A stretch of 64,000 nt of DNA from Hondaea fermentalgiana (lineage: Eukaryota > Sar > Bigyra > Thraustochytrida > Thraustochytriidae). Where the stretch lies: positions 320,277-384,276 of the forward strand of contig NPFB01000001.1 of the NCBI GenBank assembly GCA_014084085.1. Reading direction: 5' to 3'. The stretch's first letter is position 1; each line of letters begins with the position of its first letter. The translations under genes and the position numbers were made by a program. Below, piece after piece: positions 4,655-63,218 of the stretch. Under the pieces are notes generated by a model. That model was not told where the DNA came from and did not search any database. It saw only the letters and a program-made list of their open reading frames with translations.

Positions 4655-4754
4655 NNNNNNNNNNNNNNNNNNNNNNNNNNNNNNNNNNNNNNNNNNNNNN
4701 NNNNNNNNNNNNNNNNNNNNNNNNNNNNNNNNNNNNNNNNNNNNNNNNNNNNNN
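4655..4754. other. Assembly gap (100 N)
   Basis: Exactly 100 N, flanked on the left by a GCCGCCGCC run and on the right by GC-rich CGGCGGC sequence. This is a conventional scaffold-gap placeholder, so the true distance is unknown. Confidence 0.98.
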
Positions 4755-5114: not shown

Positions 5115-8100
5115 TCAGCTCTGGCCGCTGGCGACGTGGTGACGACGCTCGCGGTCCGCGCGCGGAAGAAGGTGGTCAACGCGCTGGGCTTTGGCAGCAG
5201 GACCAGTAGGACCGACGGCCACAGCGACGCCTTCCAGGCCCGGCGCGGAAGGAGGAGCGCCGTGCGAACGCGGTACAGAGCGGGCTCGGGTGATCCGGCG
5301 GATGTCCGCAGAGGATAGAGGCTGGTTGTGCAGATCCAGACCGGTGGCCACCCAGTGCCGAAGCAGGTCGCGCATGCTCCACACGGCGCCCTTGCCGTCG
5401 ACGCGGACCGGGTCCGCGATGTTGGTGTTGCCACAAAGATCCGCCCACGAGGCGCGGAAGCGGCGCGAATTGCGCGGGAGGTTCTCCCAGCGCAGGCGGA
5501 GCGAGGTTTCCAGCCGGCGCTGCCGCTGCCACTCGGGCCAGGCGCGCAGCCACGACTCGAACGCCTTGGTGCCGTCCACGACCTTGAGCGCCTCCTCGCG
5601 CGCAGCCGCAAGCTCGGCCGCGCTCACCCTCGCGTGCGACGAGTAGAGCATGTCGCAACTCGACACGGGCAGCTCCAGAACGTCTTTGAGAGCCGTCTCG
5701 AACCGCAGATACACACACGTCTCGTCGGCAGCCTTGAAGCTGGCCACCTTGCGAGCGCAGTGTTCGTGCACAACCTCGAGCCGCATGGTGCCGCGCCCCA
5801 CGCGTCGCAGGGCCGCGCGGTCGCCACGCGCGCGCGCGATCGCCGCAATCAGGTTTATCTGGTTCAACGCCCACACGGGCTTGTCCCCGCACGCGTCGAC
5901 AGCGTCGCCCATGCGCTCCAGCACCTCCTCGCGCGCGTACTCGTCGTTCGCGACAATATCGAAGGCCTCCACCACGCGCTGCGCGAGCGCAGGTTGCAAG
6001 TGCTCCGACTTGAACTCCTTCGAGGCCCGAAGCTTGGACAGAAACGCCAGCACGCCGCGCTCGTGCGCGGCGGCCACGCACCCTTCCACATCAGGGGCTT
6101 CGCCCCCCGCCAAATGAGCCCAATATCGAAGTGCCTTGGGTAAGGAGGCAAAGTGATCCTCCTCGTTCTCCTCCCCGAACCTCGCCATGTCTTGCGGAAG
6201 CCCCCGCTCCCGACGCCGCTCCCTTCGCAATCGAAACCTATTCAAGGCAACGGCTGGCGTGCCCAGCGACATCGCCGACGCCCCCCGAGGCCTTGGCGTC
6301 ACATCGGAACTGGCCTCGACCTGGTGCCGGAGCGCGTCTTTTCGTCTCGCCGCGCGCGCGTACTTGGAATCAGCCAGCTCTGCCACGACAGCCTCGCTGA
6401 CGTCTGCCTCGCCGTGAACAATCGCGCCCTCTTGTCCGCTGTACATACTTGATGCCGTGTGAAAGCGTAAATACCGCACCTTGTCGGCCTCGAGCCTGTC
6501 AAGCACATCCAGCGGGATGCCCGAGCCAGCAAGGAAAACGTCGTGCTTGTCACCTCGCTTCGGTGCGCCCCACGTAAAAATGCATGGTGGCAGCGACGTG
6601 AGGCCTGTGCAACCTTCGAGCACGAGACTGCCACCTACTTGAAGCTGCGGTGGCAGCGCGCGCAGCGAGATGCACCCACGCAGATTGAGCGACCCTCCAA
6701 CGCGGACCCCGCCCAAATCTGTGAGCAACGCGCAGTTGGCAAGATTCAGCATGCCGCCCACACGCACGTTGCGTCCAAGCGAGCGAAGTTTAGGACTCCT
6801 TGCCAAAACCAGCATGCCAGGGACGTCGAGGTCCACGTTCAAAGACTCGAGTTCGCCCGAGTCCGACGCAAAAATGCTATCGCGTGCCTTGAGCCCTTTG
6901 GGAAACTTGCGCATCACATTGTGAGTGATCCACACGTCCCCCTGGACCTCGAGCTCGTCAGGGAGGTGGAAGAGTCCTTCGTCCTCATGCACAAAGAGGT
7001 CACCCCGCACAGACCAGCCCGTGGGTAATTCCAATCGAGGGCAATTCCACAAATAAACACGTTGGCGGACGCGCTTACGCAAATCGTCGGGAATTCGACG
7101 CAGACGTGTGCATCCTGCAATGTCAAGATTTCCATTCACATTGAGATTCGACGGCAGCTCTTCTAATTGTGTACAGTTTCGCAGGCGCAAGGTTCCCGTG
7201 CTCAGCGTCTTTGGCAATTTGCGCAGCTCCGTGCAGCCACTGAGATTACATTCACCGTTGACTGTGAGTTGCGTTTTGGGGAGCCGCGCAAGAGCTGCAC
7301 ATCCGCTGGCGTCAAGTTGCCCGACGGTTCGTAACGTACGTGGCAACGCTTCGAGACAGGGATCGCAGGCTACATTGAGCATTTCCTCCACGACCTCGAG
7401 ATTTGGCGGCAGACTCTCGAGTTGTGGCATTTGTGCTGCGAACAGACTGCCTTTAATGTGTGAGATATCCAAAGGAATGGATTTGATCCCGGTGCACCGA
7501 CTGATACCCAGGCCATTAACGACGGGCAAGTTCGCAGGCACCTTTTGCAGGGCCGTACAACCTTGCACCTCGATGTATGAACCCACCTCGAGCGCGGATC
7601 CAAGCTTGCGCAGCTGCTTGCAGTTTCGCGCACTCAGCGAGCGCCCTATATACAGACCACTTCCGATCTCCTCCAAGTGCTCGCACCTGTCGCAATCCAA
7701 GTCGCCAAGAATCTTTACTTTGTGATGTCCCTTGCCATTCAATCTCTTCACAGGACTTCCTGTCAGGACGAGGTCCCCACGGATAACGACCCCACTGAGG
7801 GCGCGCGATATGCGCAAGTGTTGGCACCGGGAAAGCCAAAGATGTCCATCGACTTCGAGGCGCTGCGGAATCTCGCAGATGCCACTCTCCACGAGTGCCA
7901 GGCTGCCTCGAAAATGCGAATCGCTAGGAAGTCGTTTGAGATTTCGCATCCCGCTCGCGTTGAGGTTTCCTCGAAAGACGCCAAAGTCAGGCAAGCTACG
8001 CAGCTCGGAAAGGTCGCTAAGGTCCAGTACAGGCGTCCGGGAACAGTCTCGCAGCAATGTCGCAAGATCCTCATCGGAGATCGCGTCGCCCGGAATTCGT

Positions 8101-8444
8101 GCATTGACGCGCTCAAGGGCTTCGACCGTGAACGAGCGCAAGGCGTCGATATCGGCATAACCAGCCTGCGCAAGAGCATCGACGAAATGACGCACCCTCT
8201 CCACCACGCGCGGTAGAGACGTCCCGTGTAGACGCTGCAGGAGCGTCCACCTGACCTTGGCCTGGTCGCGGCGCGCTCTCGCGGCCTTGTCGCTCACACG
8301 ATCTGCAAAGAACTCGAAGACGCGGAAACTTGCTTCTTCACGCTGCTGCACTTCCGCCGCGCCGACGCCCGCCTCCTCGACCCACGCCTCGCACAGCTGC
8401 AAGACACGGCTGCGTTCGTCGCGCAGGGACGTCTTGGTGGGCAT
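5115..8444 (-). CDS. LRR-NEL protein: IpaH/SspH-type E3 ubiquitin ligase, eukaryotic copy
   Basis: Single-exon protein of 1109 residues. Residues 1-135 are mostly helical. Residues about 137-620 are leucine-rich repeats of the bacterial LPX kind, repeating roughly every 20-22 residues (pattern L..LP..L.V.G.L.L..C). The block closes with a capping segment (VFLAGSGIPLDVLDRLE) like that ending IpaH/SspH LRR blocks. After a basic linker, residues about 768-985 match the NEL (novel E3 ligase) fold from memory of the family: a W-containing first helix, FLSKL, the catalytic motif Cys852-Gly-Asp854 (Cys codon 5889-5891) followed by WALNQ, the MRLEVVHEHCARKV helix, VYLRFE, and DMLYSS..VSAAEL. The catalytic Cys and the nearby Asp are both present, so ligase activity is plausible. 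NEL enzymes transfer ubiquitin through a Cys thioester, and their LRR blocks usually hold substrate or inhibit the domain. Residues 1004-1050 may add a U-box-like module. The NEL family is known mainly from Gram-negative bacterial effectors, so transfer into this genome is likely. GC content resembles the neighbours, arguing against recent contamination. Confidence 0.85.
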   Translation of the reverse strand: MPTKTSLRDERSRVLQLCEAWVEEAGVGAAEVQQREEASFRVFEFFADRVSDKAARARRDQAKVRWTLLQRLHGTSLPRVVERVRHFVDALAQAGYADIDALRSFTVEALERVNARIPGDAISDEDLATLLRDCSRTPVLDLSDLSELRSLPDFGVFRGNLNASGMRNLKRLPSDSHFRGSLALVESGICEIPQRLEVDGHLWLSRCQHLRISRALSGVVIRGDLVLTGSPVKRLNGKGHHKVKILGDLDCDRCEHLEEIGSGLYIGRSLSARNCKQLRKLGSALEVGSYIEVQGCTALQKVPANLPVVNGLGISRCTGIKSIPLDISHIKGSLFAAQMPQLESLPPNLEVVEEMLNVACDPCLEALPRTLRTVGQLDASGCAALARLPKTQLTVNGECNLSGCTELRKLPKTLSTGTLRLRNCTQLEELPSNLNVNGNLDIAGCTRLRRIPDDLRKRVRQRVYLWNCPRLELPTGWSVRGDLFVHEDEGLFHLPDELEVQGDVWITHNVMRKFPKGLKARDSIFASDSGELESLNVDLDVPGMLVLARSPKLRSLGRNVRVGGMLNLANCALLTDLGGVRVGGSLNLRGCISLRALPPQLQVGGSLVLEGCTGLTSLPPCIFTWGAPKRGDKHDVFLAGSGIPLDVLDRLEADKVRYLRFHTASSMYSGQEGAIVHGEADVSEAVVAELADSKYARAARRKDALRHQVEASSDVTPRPRGASAMSLGTPAVALNRFRLRRERRRERGLPQDMARFGEENEEDHFASLPKALRYWAHLAGGEAPDVEGCVAAAHERGVLAFLSKLRASKEFKSEHLQPALAQRVVEAFDIVANDEYAREEVLERMGDAVDACGDKPVWALNQINLIAAIARARGDRAALRRVGRGTMRLEVVHEHCARKVASFKAADETCVYLRFETALKDVLELPVSSCDMLYSSHARVSAAELAAAREEALKVVDGTKAFESWLRAWPEWQRQRRLETSLRLRWENLPRNSRRFRASWADLCGNTNIADPVRVDGKGAVWSMRDLLRHWVATGLDLHNQPLSSADIRRITRARSVPRSHGAPPSAPGLEGVAVAVGPTGPAAKAQRVDHLLPRADRERRHHVASGQS

Positions 8445-16848: not shown

Positions 16849-17754
16849 GCCCGGCCGGCTCGCCGGTCGCTGTCGCGTGCCAAAGTAGCGGCGCGGGTTT
16901 AGCGTAGGCGCGGCCTAGAGAGGCATACGTCGTCGGTCCGGTCCAGCACGGCCGCGCATATTCGGAGGAGAAAGAAAGAAAGATAGAACCAAGCGCGCGA
17001 AGCCCAAGGACAGCGAGGCCCAGCTCCTCCCTGCTCCACTCGCGCGCGCTCTCGCACCGGCCTGACCGGCAGCGCCAGAGCAGGCGAGGATCGCGCCGCG
17101 ATGGCGGCGAGGCTCGGGGCGCGCGGCCGCGTGCAGCCTGCAGCCTGCTCGCAGATGCAGAGCAGTGCAGGAGAAGGTCTTTCGTCACTTCCTTCCTTTC
17201 TTTTTCCATTATTTTTTTCTTCTTCTCCGCCTCGCGGTCTTGTATGTGGATGTCATATATGAAGGTTAGTCGCGGTACGGAACAAGACCCAGTGGCAACA
17301 CCTGGGAAACAAATAAAGCAAGGTTTATTACGGGCCATGGCGCCATCGGCCATAACTTGTACAGGGCAAGTGGCGGCGCGGGGCTGCGCGAAAGGACTTG
17401 GGGAGGAGAGGAGAGGCAGCCAGGAGCGCTTCTGGTTCTCTACGCGGCCGTCACCAAGACGCGGAGAATACAAAAGCTGCTGCTGCAGCGGAGCGAGGCT
17501 CTCCTACGCTTCGTCGCGGACCCAGCAAGGCTCCCCTTGGAACCCGCATCGAGGCCCGAACCCGTACCTGACCATGGTGTGACTACTGCGCACTAGACAT
17601 GAAACTGTACGGCGTGACAAAATGTTCCGCAACCCAAAATAGCAGGCGAAAAAAAAAAAGAAAAAAAAAGAAAAAAAGGCCCGGGCGATGGTAAGTCAAC
17701 GGCCACCTTGCTTGCTTGTTCGTGTCAATCGTGAAGGCAGAGCCCAGTTCTGCC

Positions 17755-17800
17755 TGCCTGCGTGCGTGCCTGCGTGCTTGCGTGCGTGCCCGTCGTGCCG
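17755..17800. repeat. Imperfect (GCGT/GCCT)n tract 5' of BBS7
   Basis: An imperfect tetranucleotide run ending about 55 bp upstream of the BBS7 start codon, similar to tracts at 14754 and 23055. Confidence 0.8.
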
Positions 17801-17854
17801 TGCCTGCGTGCTCTGTCTGCGCACGCGCCGCGCGCGAAACTAGTCGAGCGCACC

Positions 17855-20287
17855 ATGGAGCTCAGTAGGAGCGACCTCGCCACCGTGGGACCCGTCTCGG
17901 GCGTGGACACGCTCAAAGTCCTGCCGTTCGGGAGCAAAAGCCGGAGGCAAAAGGTCGTCGTCGGCGACAACGCGGGCTTCGTGACCTGCCTGCAGTCCAA
18001 ACGCGGAGAAACAACGGCCGTCTACAAAACGAGAGTGGCAGACGGCGGGAATGCCATCGCGGCACTCGCGCTCGCTCCCAAAGGCGACACCGTCTTCGCC
18101 GCCGAAGGTCGAAACGTCCATGGGCTAAACCGCAAGGGCAAGGTCGCCCAAAGGTTCGAGACCAAACTCTCTGAGGCAATGCAGTGCCTCGTCGCCGGCG
18201 ATGATGACACCTTTTGGGCCAGCGGCGACCACACCTATACCGCCTTTCAGCGCGAACGCGAGCTCGACTACATGAGCTTTGGAGATGCCGTCACGAGCCT
18301 CGCCGTCGCTGCACCCAACAACAACGGCGAACATACTGCTCTTGTCGGCGGACAAGGCCACCAGATTCGAGCCGTCCGTCGCGGCAACATCGGCGCCACG
18401 CTCGCCACGACAGGGGCGCCCACTAGTCTCGAAGAATTGCACGCTCGCGATGGATCCGACAACCTCTTTGTTTACGGCACCTCCACCGGAAGTCTCGGCC
18501 TCTTGCAGGCCGACAACAAGGCTCAAAATCCCGAACTCCGACGTATTTGGGAATCCCAAGGCGACGGCGGCATCAACTGCATTGCCACCCACGACCTCAG
18601 CAAGGACGATGTGCCCGACATCATCGTTGGCCGCGATGACGGCCGCCTTCAGGTCTATAGGCTCCAAGAGGAAGGCAGCGGCTTGATGTCTTCCAACAGC
18701 GAGTCCAAGCACGCCCGCAGCGCGCCCGGTCTTGCTTCGCTGCAATTTGAGCGCTTCGTCGACGAAAGCGTCCGCTCTGTGCAAGCCGGTGTCGTCAGCA
18801 CGCCGGGCTTTGATGAGGTTGTTCTCTGCACATACTCGGGTAACATCATTAGCTTCAGCTCCGAGGCCCTCGACGCCGCCGAAGTTGGCGACAAGCAAGG
18901 AAGGACAAAGGCTGACATTGATGTTGAAGGTAGAACTGCGCAGCTCCGTAGCGACCTCAAGGCAGTTCAAAAGCAAATTGACGCCACGCGCGCCAAGTTG
19001 CTCAAGGTCAGCGGGAAGAATGACCTGCGCACCGAGCAGCGAGGCGGCATCAACTTTGAGCAGCTCCAGGTGAGCCAGCGCTTCGACTTGCTGCCCCGCA
19101 AAGGGTATCACGTTCTTGCTCTGCAAATGGCCGTGCCCATGTCGCTCGTCGTCTTGCACTCGGACCTTCCCATTCGTCTCCTCGACGCCGAGGAAGCTAC
19201 CGCCAGCGATGCTGGACGCGGCGCGCAGAGCATGGTCATTACGAAAACAGAGTCTGCCCAAGGCCTGCACGCCGTATTTCGCCCTCAGGAACCTTGCAAG
19301 CGTGTTGAAATTCGCATCGGGACCCTCGAGGGTCAGCATGGCCAACTCCGGGTCACCGTTGTTGCAGCCACCTCCCCGCCTCTAGGGCGCCAGCTCACAG
19401 TCGACGTCAAACCTCTCTCTCTGCATCAACGCTGCGATGTCATCGCAAATGTGGACCGCGTGCCTCTCAGCAACGTTAGCTTCTCGGGGTCTTTTTCCTT
19501 GCATCAAGCACACGACTGGATCCAATCTTGTCTACCGGATGTACCCGCCACCGTACCAAGCCTGAGTGAGACGTCAGACGCCGCGACCATGTCGTCGAGC
19601 CGTTCGGACAGTAATTGCAGCAACAGCAGCCAAAACAACAACAACAACAACAACAACAGCGAGGAGAAGGAGTCGAGCCCAGATGGAGGTAGCGCGTCCG
19701 ACCGCGGCATGCCTCAAGACGAGCCTCCCACTGCATCTCTGTACTATCGTAGCACACTCGTGGACAGCGTGCTCATCGTACGATACCGTAGTGGCCTCGT
19801 GAAAATCGAGTCCGACTCTGTGTCTGCAATCGCAATTGCGCGAGAAGTCATCACCGCAGAGGCCAACCGACGCAAAGCCAACGTCGCCATGCGCTTCAAT
19901 ATTAGACCAGACACGGTTCCATATTTTTTGCAACATCGACTCGACGCCAAGCTCGTCCAATTCTCTGCTCTCGCCAGCCGCGACCTTCTTGTTGATGCGC
20001 TGCGCGAAATTTGCAGCGATGCTGACGGGTCCGCAAATGGCGCTTTTCTGGCCCCCGAGCATCGAAGTCTCTTGGCCGCGCCCGGCGCTTCGGACGCTGC
20101 GCAACTCACACAAGCCAAGCTCACGCTTCAAGCGCTGCATGGCGTGGTCTCAGACCTGTATGTAGACGTGCAAAAGTTTGCCGGTCGCGATGTGCGCAGC
20201 CCGCACGTGCATGCCGCCTTGTCGCGTATCCTCGAGAATTATTCGCTCCAGGACCTCCGCGATTTTTTTGCTGGAGGCGCTGCGTAG
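17855..20287 (+). CDS. BBS7: Bardet-Biedl syndrome 7 protein homolog (BBSome subunit)
   Basis: Single-exon protein of 810 residues. I start at the Met at 17855 (MELSRSDLATVG), because upstream codons are (GCGT)-type repeat. The order follows animal BBS7. An N-terminal beta-propeller begins RQKVVVGDNAGFVTCLQSKRGE and includes LFVYGTSTGSLGLLQ, DIIVGRDDGRLQVY and DEVVLCTYSGNIISF. A short coiled coil follows (residues about 365-390), then a gamma-adaptin-ear-like beta domain with PLSLHQRCD and SGSFSLHQAHDWIQSCLPDVP, then the C-terminal helical platform domain. An Asn/Ser run interrupts the C-terminal half at about residue 590. The BBSome carries membrane cargo in and out of cilia, so the organism very probably makes flagellated cells. 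The only oddity is the Asn/Ser insertion. Confidence 0.95.
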   Translation: MELSRSDLATVGPVSGVDTLKVLPFGSKSRRQKVVVGDNAGFVTCLQSKRGETTAVYKTRVADGGNAIAALALAPKGDTVFAAEGRNVHGLNRKGKVAQRFETKLSEAMQCLVAGDDDTFWASGDHTYTAFQRERELDYMSFGDAVTSLAVAAPNNNGEHTALVGGQGHQIRAVRRGNIGATLATTGAPTSLEELHARDGSDNLFVYGTSTGSLGLLQADNKAQNPELRRIWESQGDGGINCIATHDLSKDDVPDIIVGRDDGRLQVYRLQEEGSGLMSSNSESKHARSAPGLASLQFERFVDESVRSVQAGVVSTPGFDEVVLCTYSGNIISFSSEALDAAEVGDKQGRTKADIDVEGRTAQLRSDLKAVQKQIDATRAKLLKVSGKNDLRTEQRGGINFEQLQVSQRFDLLPRKGYHVLALQMAVPMSLVVLHSDLPIRLLDAEEATASDAGRGAQSMVITKTESAQGLHAVFRPQEPCKRVEIRIGTLEGQHGQLRVTVVAATSPPLGRQLTVDVKPLSLHQRCDVIANVDRVPLSNVSFSGSFSLHQAHDWIQSCLPDVPATVPSLSETSDAATMSSSRSDSNCSNSSQNNNNNNNNSEEKESSPDGGSASDRGMPQDEPPTASLYYRSTLVDSVLIVRYRSGLVKIESDSVSAIAIAREVITAEANRRKANVAMRFNIRPDTVPYFLQHRLDAKLVQFSALASRDLLVDALREICSDADGSANGAFLAPEHRSLLAAPGASDAAQLTQAKLTLQALHGVVSDLYVDVQKFAGRDVRSPHVHAALSRILENYSLQDLRDFFAGGAA

Positions 20288-30060: not shown

Positions 30061-32562
30061 TCACACAAAGCTGAAAAACAGGCAGTACCAGTACGAGCGC
30101 ATAATCTGCGCGGAAAGTCCAGTAGGACGTTCGCGGAGACTCGGGATAAAGTGATCGTAGATTTTCGTACGATGCACCGTCAACATGCGACGGAGAATGG
30201 CGTCTGTCGCCGTAAAGGCAGACGTTGGCATGCGGGGACAGCGCTCGGGAGCACCCGTTTCCCCAAACAACATGCGCATCACCTTGCTTGACTCTGCGGC
30301 CTGGCCATGGATGCTCTGCGGAGCAAAATTAAGCCCGGAGCTGCCAAGAGGAAGAACGTGCAGAAGTCCCGCGCGCGAACTCTGTGCGTCAATCTTGGAA
30401 AACTCATCCGAGACAACCCACGAGCTATCGCCCGAGGGACGCGGCACAGCGCGGATATTTTGCGAAAAAACACGAGGCTGCGAGGCGCGCGAGCGCTGCT
30501 TTTGAAAGAGATGCTTGGCCTGCAGGTCAAGCGCCGATGACAGCGAAGGGATCATTTCCGACGCCACGAGCGCATCGAGAAAGACGTTGACGTCGCCAAA
30601 GGCAAAACTATGCGCCGAGAGATGCTCCAGCCAAACGAGCTCAATACTCGCAGTCTGCGCAATATTGCGCACAATAATGCCCTTACCCAGCCGGGTGTCG
30701 TGACCACAGCCAGCCTTGGAAAGAGCGCTGCGAAGCGTGGCGAGCAAGCTGTTGTCCAAGTTCCGGTCCATGTTGTAGAAAAAGAGCGTGTTGCGCACGC
30801 GCGATGCGCCTCCAGCATGCTTCCACGTCGGACTCGCGCACAGATCCCCAATCCAGGAAAAGTCGCTCATACCCTTGCGAAGGGCCACGACGTAGTGAAC
30901 GTCCATGTCGTCCTCACTGGGAATCTTGGCCTCGGCCAGCGCAGCGTCCAGACGCGAGCGCCCTTCCAGCTTGACGTAAAGGTCGAGGGCGTTCTGGATA
31001 GCATCATCCATGTTAAAGTACTTGTAGTTTGCGAGACGACCCACAAAGTGCACATTGTTGACCTCTTCCTCGTCCTTGGCGAGCTCGCGGTACTTTTCAA
31101 AGTGCTGCTGGTTCTCCTCGGTGGGAAAAGGATAGTATGGCTCCGCGCCATCCTTGATGTCGGTCGAGTACTCTCGGATAAGCACAGACTGCGCCGAATC
31201 TTGGTGATACATGTGCTTGTACTCGGCTGTGCGCGTGTGATTGCCGTCGCGAAATTGCGGGAAATTGACCACAAAGGCAGGTTGGTGGACACTCGGCTCG
31301 GGCACGACAACAGTCTCAAATTTGATGGAACGGTACTGGAGCGGCTTGAGATTGACGCCGCGGTTTCGGAAGAACTGGTCAATCTGGCCCGTGAAAAAAG
31401 TCTTTTCGAACTTGAGCTTTGCGAATTGCTCATGCTTGAGCATCGCAAAGTAGTCCGTCGACGTAAACACGCGAATATTCGGATGGTCGAGTGCCTCCTC
31501 GAACCACCGCGTGTACCCATCAGCAGGCAGAGCCTGGTGCTTGTCGTTGGGAAAGTAGCGGTCGTCCCAGTCTTGACGCACGGGGATGCGCGAGAGCACA
31601 ACAGGGCCCAGATCCTCGGGATACACGTTCCACTGCTTCTTGGTGTATTCCTTGAAGAGCTTGTTGTACAAGCGCTCGCCGACGCGGCCCATGCCAACCT
31701 CGCGCGAGTTCTTGGCCGTTGCAACGTCAACCTCGCCCACGGGACTGTTGCGCCTCTCGCGAGAGAGCCAATCGGCCATGGCGCTCACCGAGTCCACATT
31801 CTCACCCAAAATCGCATTCACCGTGTCAATGTTGACAGGAATCGGCACAAGTTTGCCGTCGACACGACCCACCACACGATGCTCGTACGGTGTCCACTCG
31901 GAGAACCGATGCACATACTTCCAGACGTCCTCTTTACCCGTGTGGAAAAGATGGGCGCCGTACAGGTTGACGAGAATGCCAGTGCGCTGCTCGTGAAAAT
32001 CGTAGCAGTTGCCGCCAATGTGCGGGCGACGCTCAATAATGAGCACCTTTTTCCCGTGCTTACGGGCGTACAAGTCGGCAAGGACGGTGCCCGAGAGACC
32101 GGCACCAACAATGAGAATGTCATAGCCCTGCATTTCCTGCATGGTCAAGACATCGGGAAACTGTTCGGCAGCGAGTTCAATCACTGTCGACGCCTTTGTT
32201 TGCGTGCGCGGCGTGTACGCAACGGGAGTTTCCTCTGCTTCAACTCCAGAAAAAGAGTTCGCCGCGGCCGAGACCGAGGACTGAAATCTACGTGAAAGTG
32301 ATCCGGGGTTCTTGCCGGTCAGCTCGCATGGCATACTGCTCAAGGTGAGGCCTCGAAGGTGCCAGGTAAGGACGACGGACCCGAGCAAGAGCGCGAGCAC
32401 CTTCCACGGTCCGAATTTCCACGAGCGAAATCCTGTCGAGGTTTGCGACGACGAAATGTGCAAGCGTGCTGGCGTTGGGTGCATTCTGCTCGAGGGCGAG
32501 CGACGCGTCGGCAGGTTTCCGCCATGACCGGAGTCGCTTCGCGCGCGGCGTTCAATCCCCAT
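30061..32562 (-). CDS. Membrane-anchored UDP-galactopyranose mutase with extra C-terminal domain
   Basis: Single-exon protein of 833 residues. Residues 54-72 form a membrane span behind an Arg-rich N-terminus, predicting a type II anchor with the bulk in the lumen. Residues about 147-545 are UDP-galactopyranose mutase (UGM), the flavoenzyme converting UDP-galactopyranose to UDP-galactofuranose. Visible motifs are the FAD Rossmann loop GAGLSG (153-158), IERRPHIGGNCYD, NLYGAHLFHT, the RIPVRQDWDDRYFPND..PADGYT substrate region with conserved Arg residues, and the LQYRSIKFET strand. Residues about 552-700 form a second domain (MDVHYVVALRKGMSDFSWIGDL.., VRNIAQTASIELVWLEHLSA..DVNVFLDA) that resembles DUF3431, a family near glycosyltransferases. 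Known UGMs are about 370-500 residues, lack this extension and are usually soluble. The product supplies galactofuranose for surface glycans, absent in animals. Confidence 0.9.
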   Translation of the reverse strand: MGIERRARSDSGHGGNLPTRRSPSSRMHPTPARLHISSSQTSTGFRSWKFGPWKVLALLLGSVVLTWHLRGLTLSSMPCELTGKNPGSLSRRFQSSVSAAANSFSGVEAEETPVAYTPRTQTKASTVIELAAEQFPDVLTMQEMQGYDILIVGAGLSGTVLADLYARKHGKKVLIIERRPHIGGNCYDFHEQRTGILVNLYGAHLFHTGKEDVWKYVHRFSEWTPYEHRVVGRVDGKLVPIPVNIDTVNAILGENVDSVSAMADWLSRERRNSPVGEVDVATAKNSREVGMGRVGERLYNKLFKEYTKKQWNVYPEDLGPVVLSRIPVRQDWDDRYFPNDKHQALPADGYTRWFEEALDHPNIRVFTSTDYFAMLKHEQFAKLKFEKTFFTGQIDQFFRNRGVNLKPLQYRSIKFETVVVPEPSVHQPAFVVNFPQFRDGNHTRTAEYKHMYHQDSAQSVLIREYSTDIKDGAEPYYPFPTEENQQHFEKYRELAKDEEEVNNVHFVGRLANYKYFNMDDAIQNALDLYVKLEGRSRLDAALAEAKIPSEDDMDVHYVVALRKGMSDFSWIGDLCASPTWKHAGGASRVRNTLFFYNMDRNLDNSLLATLRSALSKAGCGHDTRLGKGIIVRNIAQTASIELVWLEHLSAHSFAFGDVNVFLDALVASEMIPSLSSALDLQAKHLFQKQRSRASQPRVFSQNIRAVPRPSGDSSWVVSDEFSKIDAQSSRAGLLHVLPLGSSGLNFAPQSIHGQAAESSKVMRMLFGETGAPERCPRMPTSAFTATDAILRRMLTVHRTKIYDHFIPSLRERPTGLSAQIMRSYWYCLFFSFV

Positions 32563-33015
32563 CCTCTTGATCTGATCGGCTGGCGCTTCGGGCGGGGCCG
32601 ACTCCAGCCAGCAAGCTCTGCGAGAGCGAAGAAGAGCGCTTCCGCGTCTGCGTGCGCTGGTGCCAGCCTGGGTGTGTTCACCTCGAGCTGGCCCTGCAGG
32701 CCGGTGATGAACGAGGTGCGGAGCTCGCGGACACGCGCACGCTCACTCGACAAGAATGCGTATCTCACGCTCGGGCCCTGCGCTTCGAGGCGCGCAGCTG
32801 TACCCGCGGCGGCCTGCCTCGCTCCAGCTGGCTGTTCCCGCCTTCGCGCGCTGCGCGAGGCCGAGCAACGGTGTTTGCTTGCTGGGCTTGCACTTGTCCT
32901 GCCTAGTAGGCCTACATGAAGAAAAGCAGCCAAAAAAAAATAAAAAAAAATAAAGCACGCCTAGGCTAGGAAGAAGCAGGCCAAAGGGGAAAAAAAGAAA
33001 GAAAAAAAAAAGGAA
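32563..33015. other. UDP-galactopyranose mutase 5' flank
   Basis: GC-rich DNA upstream of the UDP-galactopyranose mutase gene, ending in A-rich runs at 32930-32955 and 32990-33011. The latter read as T-runs on the minus strand and lie just past the tRNA 3' end. Confidence 0.5.
32999..33011 (-). terminator. RNA polymerase III T-run after tRNA-Phe
   Basis: On the minus strand a long T-rich run begins four bases past the tRNA discriminator base. It is the standard polymerase III stop. Confidence 0.8.
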
Positions 33016-33039
33016 TGCGGTTTCCGCGGATCGAACGCA

Positions 33040-33072
<33 letters not shown>

Positions 33073-33088
33073 CCTGAGCTAAAACCGC
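33016..33088 (-). tRNA. tRNA-Phe (GAA)
   Basis: A 73-nt cloverleaf on the minus strand. The acceptor stem GCGGTTT/AAACCGC is a perfect seven-pair helix with discriminator A and no encoded CCA. The D arm reads GCTC-AGGTGGGA-GAGC. The anticodon arm is TCAGA-CTGAAGA-TCTGA with anticodon GAA at 33053-33055, and the T arm is CTGCG-TTCGATC-CGCGG with one G-U pair. A-box and B-box promoter sequences are intact, and there is no intron. It lies between the UDP-galactopyranose mutase gene and the Cys/His-repeat gene. Confidence 0.97.
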
Positions 33089-63118: not shown

Positions 63119-63218
63119 NNNNNNNNNNNNNNNNNNNNNNNNNNNNNNNNNNNNNNNNNNNNNNNNNNNNNNNNNNNNNNNNNNNNNNNNNNNNNNNNNN
63201 NNNNNNNNNNNNNNNNNN
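63119..63218. other. Assembly gap (100 N)
   Basis: Exactly 100 N, flanked on both sides by CCCGCC/CCGCCGC sequence. It lies just upstream of the start codon chosen for the last gene. Confidence 0.98.

Follow-up and report, generated by a model that had tools for sequence, protein, structure and literature searches.

The 64,000-nucleotide stretch of Hondaea fermentalgiana DNA analysed here (the window; contig NPFB01000001.1, positions 320,277 to 384,276) carries on its reverse strand a gene for a protein with leucine-rich repeats (LRR), a NEL catalytic lobe and an unusual C-terminal tail. NEL ligases are described as bacterial weapons whose catalytic domain has no counterpart among eukaryotic ligases (PMC12506513, PMC9320238). 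We consider it likely that the Hondaea protein belongs to an endogenous family of NEL ubiquitin ligases, whose catalytic lobe and that of bacterial LRR-NEL effectors are homologous, and in which a U-box-like tail, taking the place of the thumb of these effectors, would load the enzyme from a ubiquitin-conjugating enzyme (E2). The parts of the gene are as follows.

5115-8444, reverse strand: whole gene; the 1109-residue product has leucine-rich repeats, a NEL catalytic lobe and a U-box-like tail
8025-8444, reverse strand: N-terminal region, residues about 1-140, shared with the outside relatives P0002 (34% identity) and P0024 (38%)
6525-8024, reverse strand: leucine-rich repeats, residues about 141-640, with LxxLP-type motifs and weak LRR matches
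5499-6107, reverse strand: NEL catalytic lobe, residues about 780-982
5883-5891, reverse strand: catalytic CxD motif, Cys852-Gly-Asp854
5247-5453, reverse strand: U-box-like domain, residues about 998-1066, at the position of the bacterial two-helix thumb
5118-5246, reverse strand: C-terminal extension, residues 1067-1109, predicted disordered, with a predicted local distance difference test score (pLDDT) mostly below 50

An initial annotation of this DNA, made from the sequence without database searches, had proposed an open reading frame of 1109 residues with about 480 residues of leucine-rich repeats and a NEL domain carrying Cys852-x-Asp854. The reading frame, which starts with ATG, and the motif are present as described, and 12 L-x-x-(LIVF)-P motifs over residues 148-615 agree with the extent given for the repeats. 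The Pfam NEL profile (PF14496) matched residues 793-974 with an E value of 1.1e-24 and a score of 87.5 bits, for a curated cut-off of 24. In a single-sequence comparison with the chains of the PDB, the NEL region matched SspH1 at an E value of 8.3e-10 and several IpaH chains at values from 5.9e-8 to 3.3e-7. The repeats had been called bacterial in style, which was not borne out. Their best NCBIfam match was XopL (E 1.3e-11), and this match, like those of the protein to IpaH, SlrP, SspH2 and XopAE, was far under the curated cut-off; the Pfam LRR_EndoS match was weak and below cut-off; and among PDB sequences the repeats matched a plant-type NADase and disease-resistance proteins. Judged from these comparisons, the repeats are not specifically IpaH-like and not especially bacterial.

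The cysteine of the CxD motif is the nucleophile of NEL enzymes, and its aspartate matters in IpaH3 (PMC11354881). Both residues (Cys76 and Asp78 of our alignment, Cys852 and Asp854 of the window protein) were invariant in a 21-row alignment, and CxD was kept in all 42 distinct eukaryote-type members (41 picked by script, the motif of P0023 being established separately). The site of SspH1 His498 is mostly occupied by Trp in these members. The predicted structure places the region in the NEL catalytic-lobe fold. The window protein probably serves as a ubiquitin ligase of the protist itself, a role that the initial annotation had raised as a possibility.

In SspH1, the catalytic region (residues 405-622) is followed by an E2~ubiquitin-binding thumb (residues 623-697) made of two long antiparallel helices (PMC12506513). 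The model of the window protein aligned to SspH1 residues 409-625 and ended there; at the thumb position, both the longer and the tail-only models had strands and a short helix in place of a helical thumb. Modelled alone, the tail reached a pLDDT of 83 and a predicted template-modelling score of 0.70. Among the 50 structural matches listed for this model, 16 were titled U-box proteins and 10 were RING modules; the other 24 were spliceosome entries, in which we take the matched chains to be Prp19 or similar. The designation as a bacterial-effector-type NEL is thus only partly apt: the catalytic domain with its CxD conforms to it, and the complete effector type is not there, since by sequence and model the protein has no thumb and carries a U-box-like tail at that position.

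The tail has the pattern G-x-x-(I/M/L)-x-D-P-V ... W-S ... L-L-x-H-W-V-x-T-G-x-D-x-x-N and no conserved Cys or His zinc ligands. The Pfam U-box profile (PF04564) matched none of 20 tails, a set without the degenerate tail of L018, and we therefore call the tail U-box-like and not a member of PF04564. Searched against PDB sequences, a tail profile, likewise without L018, ranked two Prp19 U-boxes first, at non-significant E values (0.36 and 0.45). Profile-profile comparison showed similarity to seven U-boxes of Hondaea itself. With hhalign, 42 tails scored 27.3 against them (E 6.6e-5 for one comparison, probability 64%), a score reached by none of 300 column permutations (maximum 17.1); 20 tails, the degenerate one (L018) being left out here and included in the set of 42, scored 26.6, reached by none of 200 permutations (maximum 19.3). 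As controls, 88 decoy windows from other domains gave maximum scores of 17.7 (with the tail) and 20.7 (with the U-boxes), and windows of the catalytic lobe reached no more than 14.7 against the U-boxes. A profile of the bacterial thumb (11 sequences) scored 11.4 against the U-boxes and only 10.9 against the tail, within the decoy range, and homology of the tail with the thumb was rejected.

The tail was present in all 42 distinct eukaryote-type members, being degenerate in one of them. In eight protein pairs, identity was 57-83% in the tail, 55-80% in the catalytic lobe and 29-53% in the recognition region, the latter being defined by distance from the cysteine and not by repeats. Used as a query on the Hondaea genome, the window tail recovered all NEL loci but one (12 of 13, with E values up to 0.04) and no other place at E<0.1; two further places matched at E 0.69 and 0.91. 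The locus that escaped was L018. Because it is conserved like the lobe and confined to NEL loci, the tail appears to behave as part of the catalytic machine. L018 (on contig C76), a paralogue with CxD whose degenerate tail lacks DPV, offers a natural test case for the role of the tail.

Two other arrangements of lobe and tail were considered. First, the tail might be the relic of a U-box whose only remaining role is to pack against the lobe or stabilise it; the binding site for E2~ubiquitin would then be on the NEL lobe or on some other surface, and the protein would still be a cysteine ligase. The lack of some typical U-box sequence features, reflected in the absence of Pfam matches, and the L018 protein, which has lost DPV and retained CxD, agree with this idea, but conservation of the tail equals that of the lobe, and a hydrophobic residue, Leu1003, stands at the E2-contact position of U-boxes, at the usual distance from DPV. 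In 41 of 42 members a hydrophobic residue (L, F, V or I) occupies this position, which lies seven residues ahead of the Asp of DPV in members without an extra residue; we take it to be that of the E2-contact Ile of U-boxes. We regard a relic as unlikely. Second, activity could reside in the U-box, which would act as a scaffold-type ligase, and the NEL lobe could be left over as a regulatory or substrate-binding part. U-boxes do function without a catalytic cysteine; however, Cys and Asp of CxD are preserved in all 42 members as expected for a working nucleophile, which makes a remnant lobe quite improbable.

In the cycle that we propose for a U-box-loaded NEL ligase, the tail would dock a charged cellular E2, and ubiquitin would pass from the E2 to Cys852, forming a thioester. 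The N-terminal recognition part (leucine-rich repeats in the window protein, SPRY with repeats or armadillo repeats in paralogues) would hold the substrate, to which ubiquitin would then be handed from Cys852.

Rather than a lone acquisition, the window gene is a member of an endogenous set of NEL-type genes in Hondaea that numbers at least 13. A search of the assembly (36.0 Mb, 238 contigs) found 13 NEL loci above the Pfam cut-off on 12 contigs of up to 1.1 Mb, with no internal stop in any match. Two deposited Hondaea proteins, P0018 and P0028, represent further NEL genes outside these 13 loci; the assembly seems incomplete, as a search with P0018 failed to recover its own NEL gene. Three protein searches gave 11, 5 and 30 matches, from metagenomes, Hondaea, a transcript of the MMETSP collection (P0033) and GenBank records; the first two scored only the 7999-8000 candidates with most words in common. 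Six proteins (P0008, P0011, P0013, P0022, P0026 and P0030) were left out of the member counts as copies of Hondaea loci, with identical 80-mers around the cysteine, and so was a fragment (P0016). P0028, which has its own gene with CxD and tail, also stands outside these counts. Front parts vary within the family: they contain LRR_EndoS-like or unrecognised repeats, SPRY and other repeats (L015, L019) or, in one case, an armadillo-repeat match (L016).

Several deposited records deserve comment. The GenBank relative P0004 is labelled Durusdinium trenchii. It and five others (P0005, P0009, P0023, P0025, P0038) are NEL proteins on contigs of 5.7-11.3 kb, several of them fused to unrelated genes. 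We suspect thraustochytrid DNA in that assembly, because the contigs are short and the gene models fused (for example, a PRP6 or a COP9 subunit with NEL). P0018 is a deposited Hondaea 'Nephrocystin-3' model combining NEL, TPR and kinase domains, the other parts of which match many loci at 44-92% identity; it is probably a fused gene model across a large repeated family. Other deposited Hondaea NEL proteins (P0008, P0011, P0022) bear names such as tubulin, ryanodine receptor or importin, and in at least the tubulin-named one the gene model seems to have been merged with that of an adjacent gene. Some deposited names read 'SspH1' or 'NEL domain-containing' through automatic annotation.

An expanded family with recognition parts more diverse than the catalytic ends might also be expected of secreted protist effectors that act on another cell, and not of housekeeping or immune ligases. 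Against this, the window protein has a polar N-terminus without any hydrophobic segment above threshold (hydropathy scan, which covered 9 of 15 proteins), and the unusual putative E2-loading tail suggests use with the organism's own E2s; we give secreted effectors little credence.

To examine ancestry, bacterial NEL proteins were collected with an alignment headed by a Serratia sequence, which found 98 relatives; 80 were kept, all of them distant from the eukaryotic group. A first tree of the catalytic lobe, with 23 eukaryote-type and 20 bacterial rows (19 of the 80 loci and Serratia), separated the two sets by a branch with support of 100/98, the eukaryotic stem measuring 1.74 changes per column. 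A second tree, from which L057 and L058 (long bacterial branches) were left out and to which 19 eukaryote-type rows were added, gave a split with support of 99/95 between 42 eukaryote-type and 18 bacterial rows; in this tree the bootstrap had not settled, and long branches meet. Eukaryote-type NEL proteins form one group. The tree that the initial annotation had called for thus separates eukaryote-type from bacterial rows, and gives neither donor nor direction of transfer, both trees being unrooted. Acquisition from a bacterium, which had been proposed for this gene, is plausible as the origin of a family, although the scans described below found no close bacterial relative; transfer may also have run from a eukaryote to bacteria.

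A possible donor or carrier was searched for in several collections by scans that start from short patterns, so that absence from them is not proof. In 84,980 species genomes, 53 stretches were matched by the eukaryote-only alignment, and none was confirmed as a bacterial relative. In viral contigs, the window protein matched 8 stretches and the 21-row alignment 10, none confirmed; no NEL carrier was found among phages, and a viral or phage carrier was set aside. Plasmids gave five weak records only (best E 0.4). Among the bacterial loci, L058-L106 are Pseudomonas genes for long proteins with a distant NEL-like region, and most of those translated lack the C-x-D-(K/R/M) string; to judge from sequence, their active site may differ.

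The position of the gene on its contig is defined by two further features.

4655-4754, no strand: run of 100 N, a probable scaffold gap, 3' of the window gene
17735-20284, forward strand: BBS7 gene, in the same gapless stretch as the window gene, arguing for a eukaryotic chromosome

The run of N lies 360 bases past the stop codon of the NEL gene, and linkage to sequence below 4655 therefore rests on scaffolding. From 4755 to 63118 the window contains no N; this stretch holds the NEL gene, BBS7 and other eukaryotic genes. Eight of the nine long open reading frames scanned in it had a Pfam match, among them BBS7, an Alg9-like mannosyltransferase, a BK-type channel domain and an M24 peptidase. 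The NEL gene has a GC content of 61.7% and a third-position GC content (GC3) of 0.70, for a GC3 of 0.63-0.64 in three neighbours. The gapless 58-kb stretch with its eukaryotic genes, together with the 13 loci on 12 contigs, supports integration of the NEL gene in a eukaryotic chromosome, in agreement with the initial annotation. Bacterial contamination or a misjoined contig, for which only the nearby gap could be invoked, is contradicted by this neighbourhood and by the number of loci, and also by the lack of any confirmed bacterial relative of the eukaryote-only alignment, by the U-box-like, SPRY and armadillo fusions of family members and by the MMETSP transcript of a relative, and was rejected as having a negligible probability.

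Other features of the window include a second run of exactly 100 N at 63119-63218, probably a scaffold gap, a gene for UDP-galactopyranose mutase (GLF, E 4.7e-61) at 30064-32742 on the reverse strand of this protist chromosome, and a tRNA-Phe(GAA) at 33016-33088 (reverse strand), identified by ARAGORN and Rfam.

Compared with the bacterial LRR-NEL effectors (SspH1, SspH2, SlrP, IpaH, and NopM of rhizobia), the Hondaea genes form a eukaryotic family on a long separate branch, and their products have a U-box-like tail instead of a helical E2~ubiquitin-binding thumb. The effectors are encoded by genes of Gram-negative bacteria and exported by secretion systems, whereas the window gene lies in a eukaryotic chromosome. 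The tail resembles the U-box ligases Prp19, UBE4B/Ufd2 and CHIP in its predicted, probably U-box-like fold, in its lack of conserved zinc ligands and in the DPV strand and its spacing; it differs from them in having a sequence below Pfam recognition and in being placed behind a cysteine ligase lobe. We know of no standard U-box ligase that has a catalytic cysteine. RBR ligases (Parkin, HHARI) bind E2~ubiquitin through a RING-type domain and have their catalytic cysteine in another domain. The likeness to the proposed cycle is one of working logic only: the catalytic domain is unrelated, the order and the folds differ, and no homology is claimed. U-box 2 of Legionella LubX was among the structural matches of the tail; LubX has no NEL lobe. 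XopL of Xanthomonas, the best LRR match of the window protein, has a different ligase domain.

No report of a eukaryotic NEL-U-box ligase was found in the open-access literature, to which the search was confined (subscription journals and preprints lay outside it). An algal NLR with a NEL-type domain, tied to an LRR-class domain, has been reported (PMC7145615), so that a domain under the name NEL had already been claimed for a eukaryote. PF14496 is merely listed among search profiles in PMC7029713, and the excerpts of PMC12221091, PMC3482391, PMC11354881 and PMC12770821 contain nothing on such a ligase. The NEL lobe and the U-box are each known; as far as the open-access literature shows, their union in a eukaryotic family is the new element.

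The view of NEL as a purely bacterial weapon would have to change if a eukaryotic family shares the lobe, and the origin of the effector NEL domains becomes a testable question. Such a family would also provide a natural swap of the E2-loading part, with which to test what is indispensable in a NEL enzyme, and a second example, after the RBR ligases, of a RING-type fold that loads a catalytic cysteine. For the organisms themselves, we give about an even chance to the following view: thraustochytrids would use U-box-loaded NEL cysteine ligases with fast-diversifying recognition parts as an expanded receptor-like family, possibly sensing microbes, and may share the lobe with bacterial effectors through transfer.

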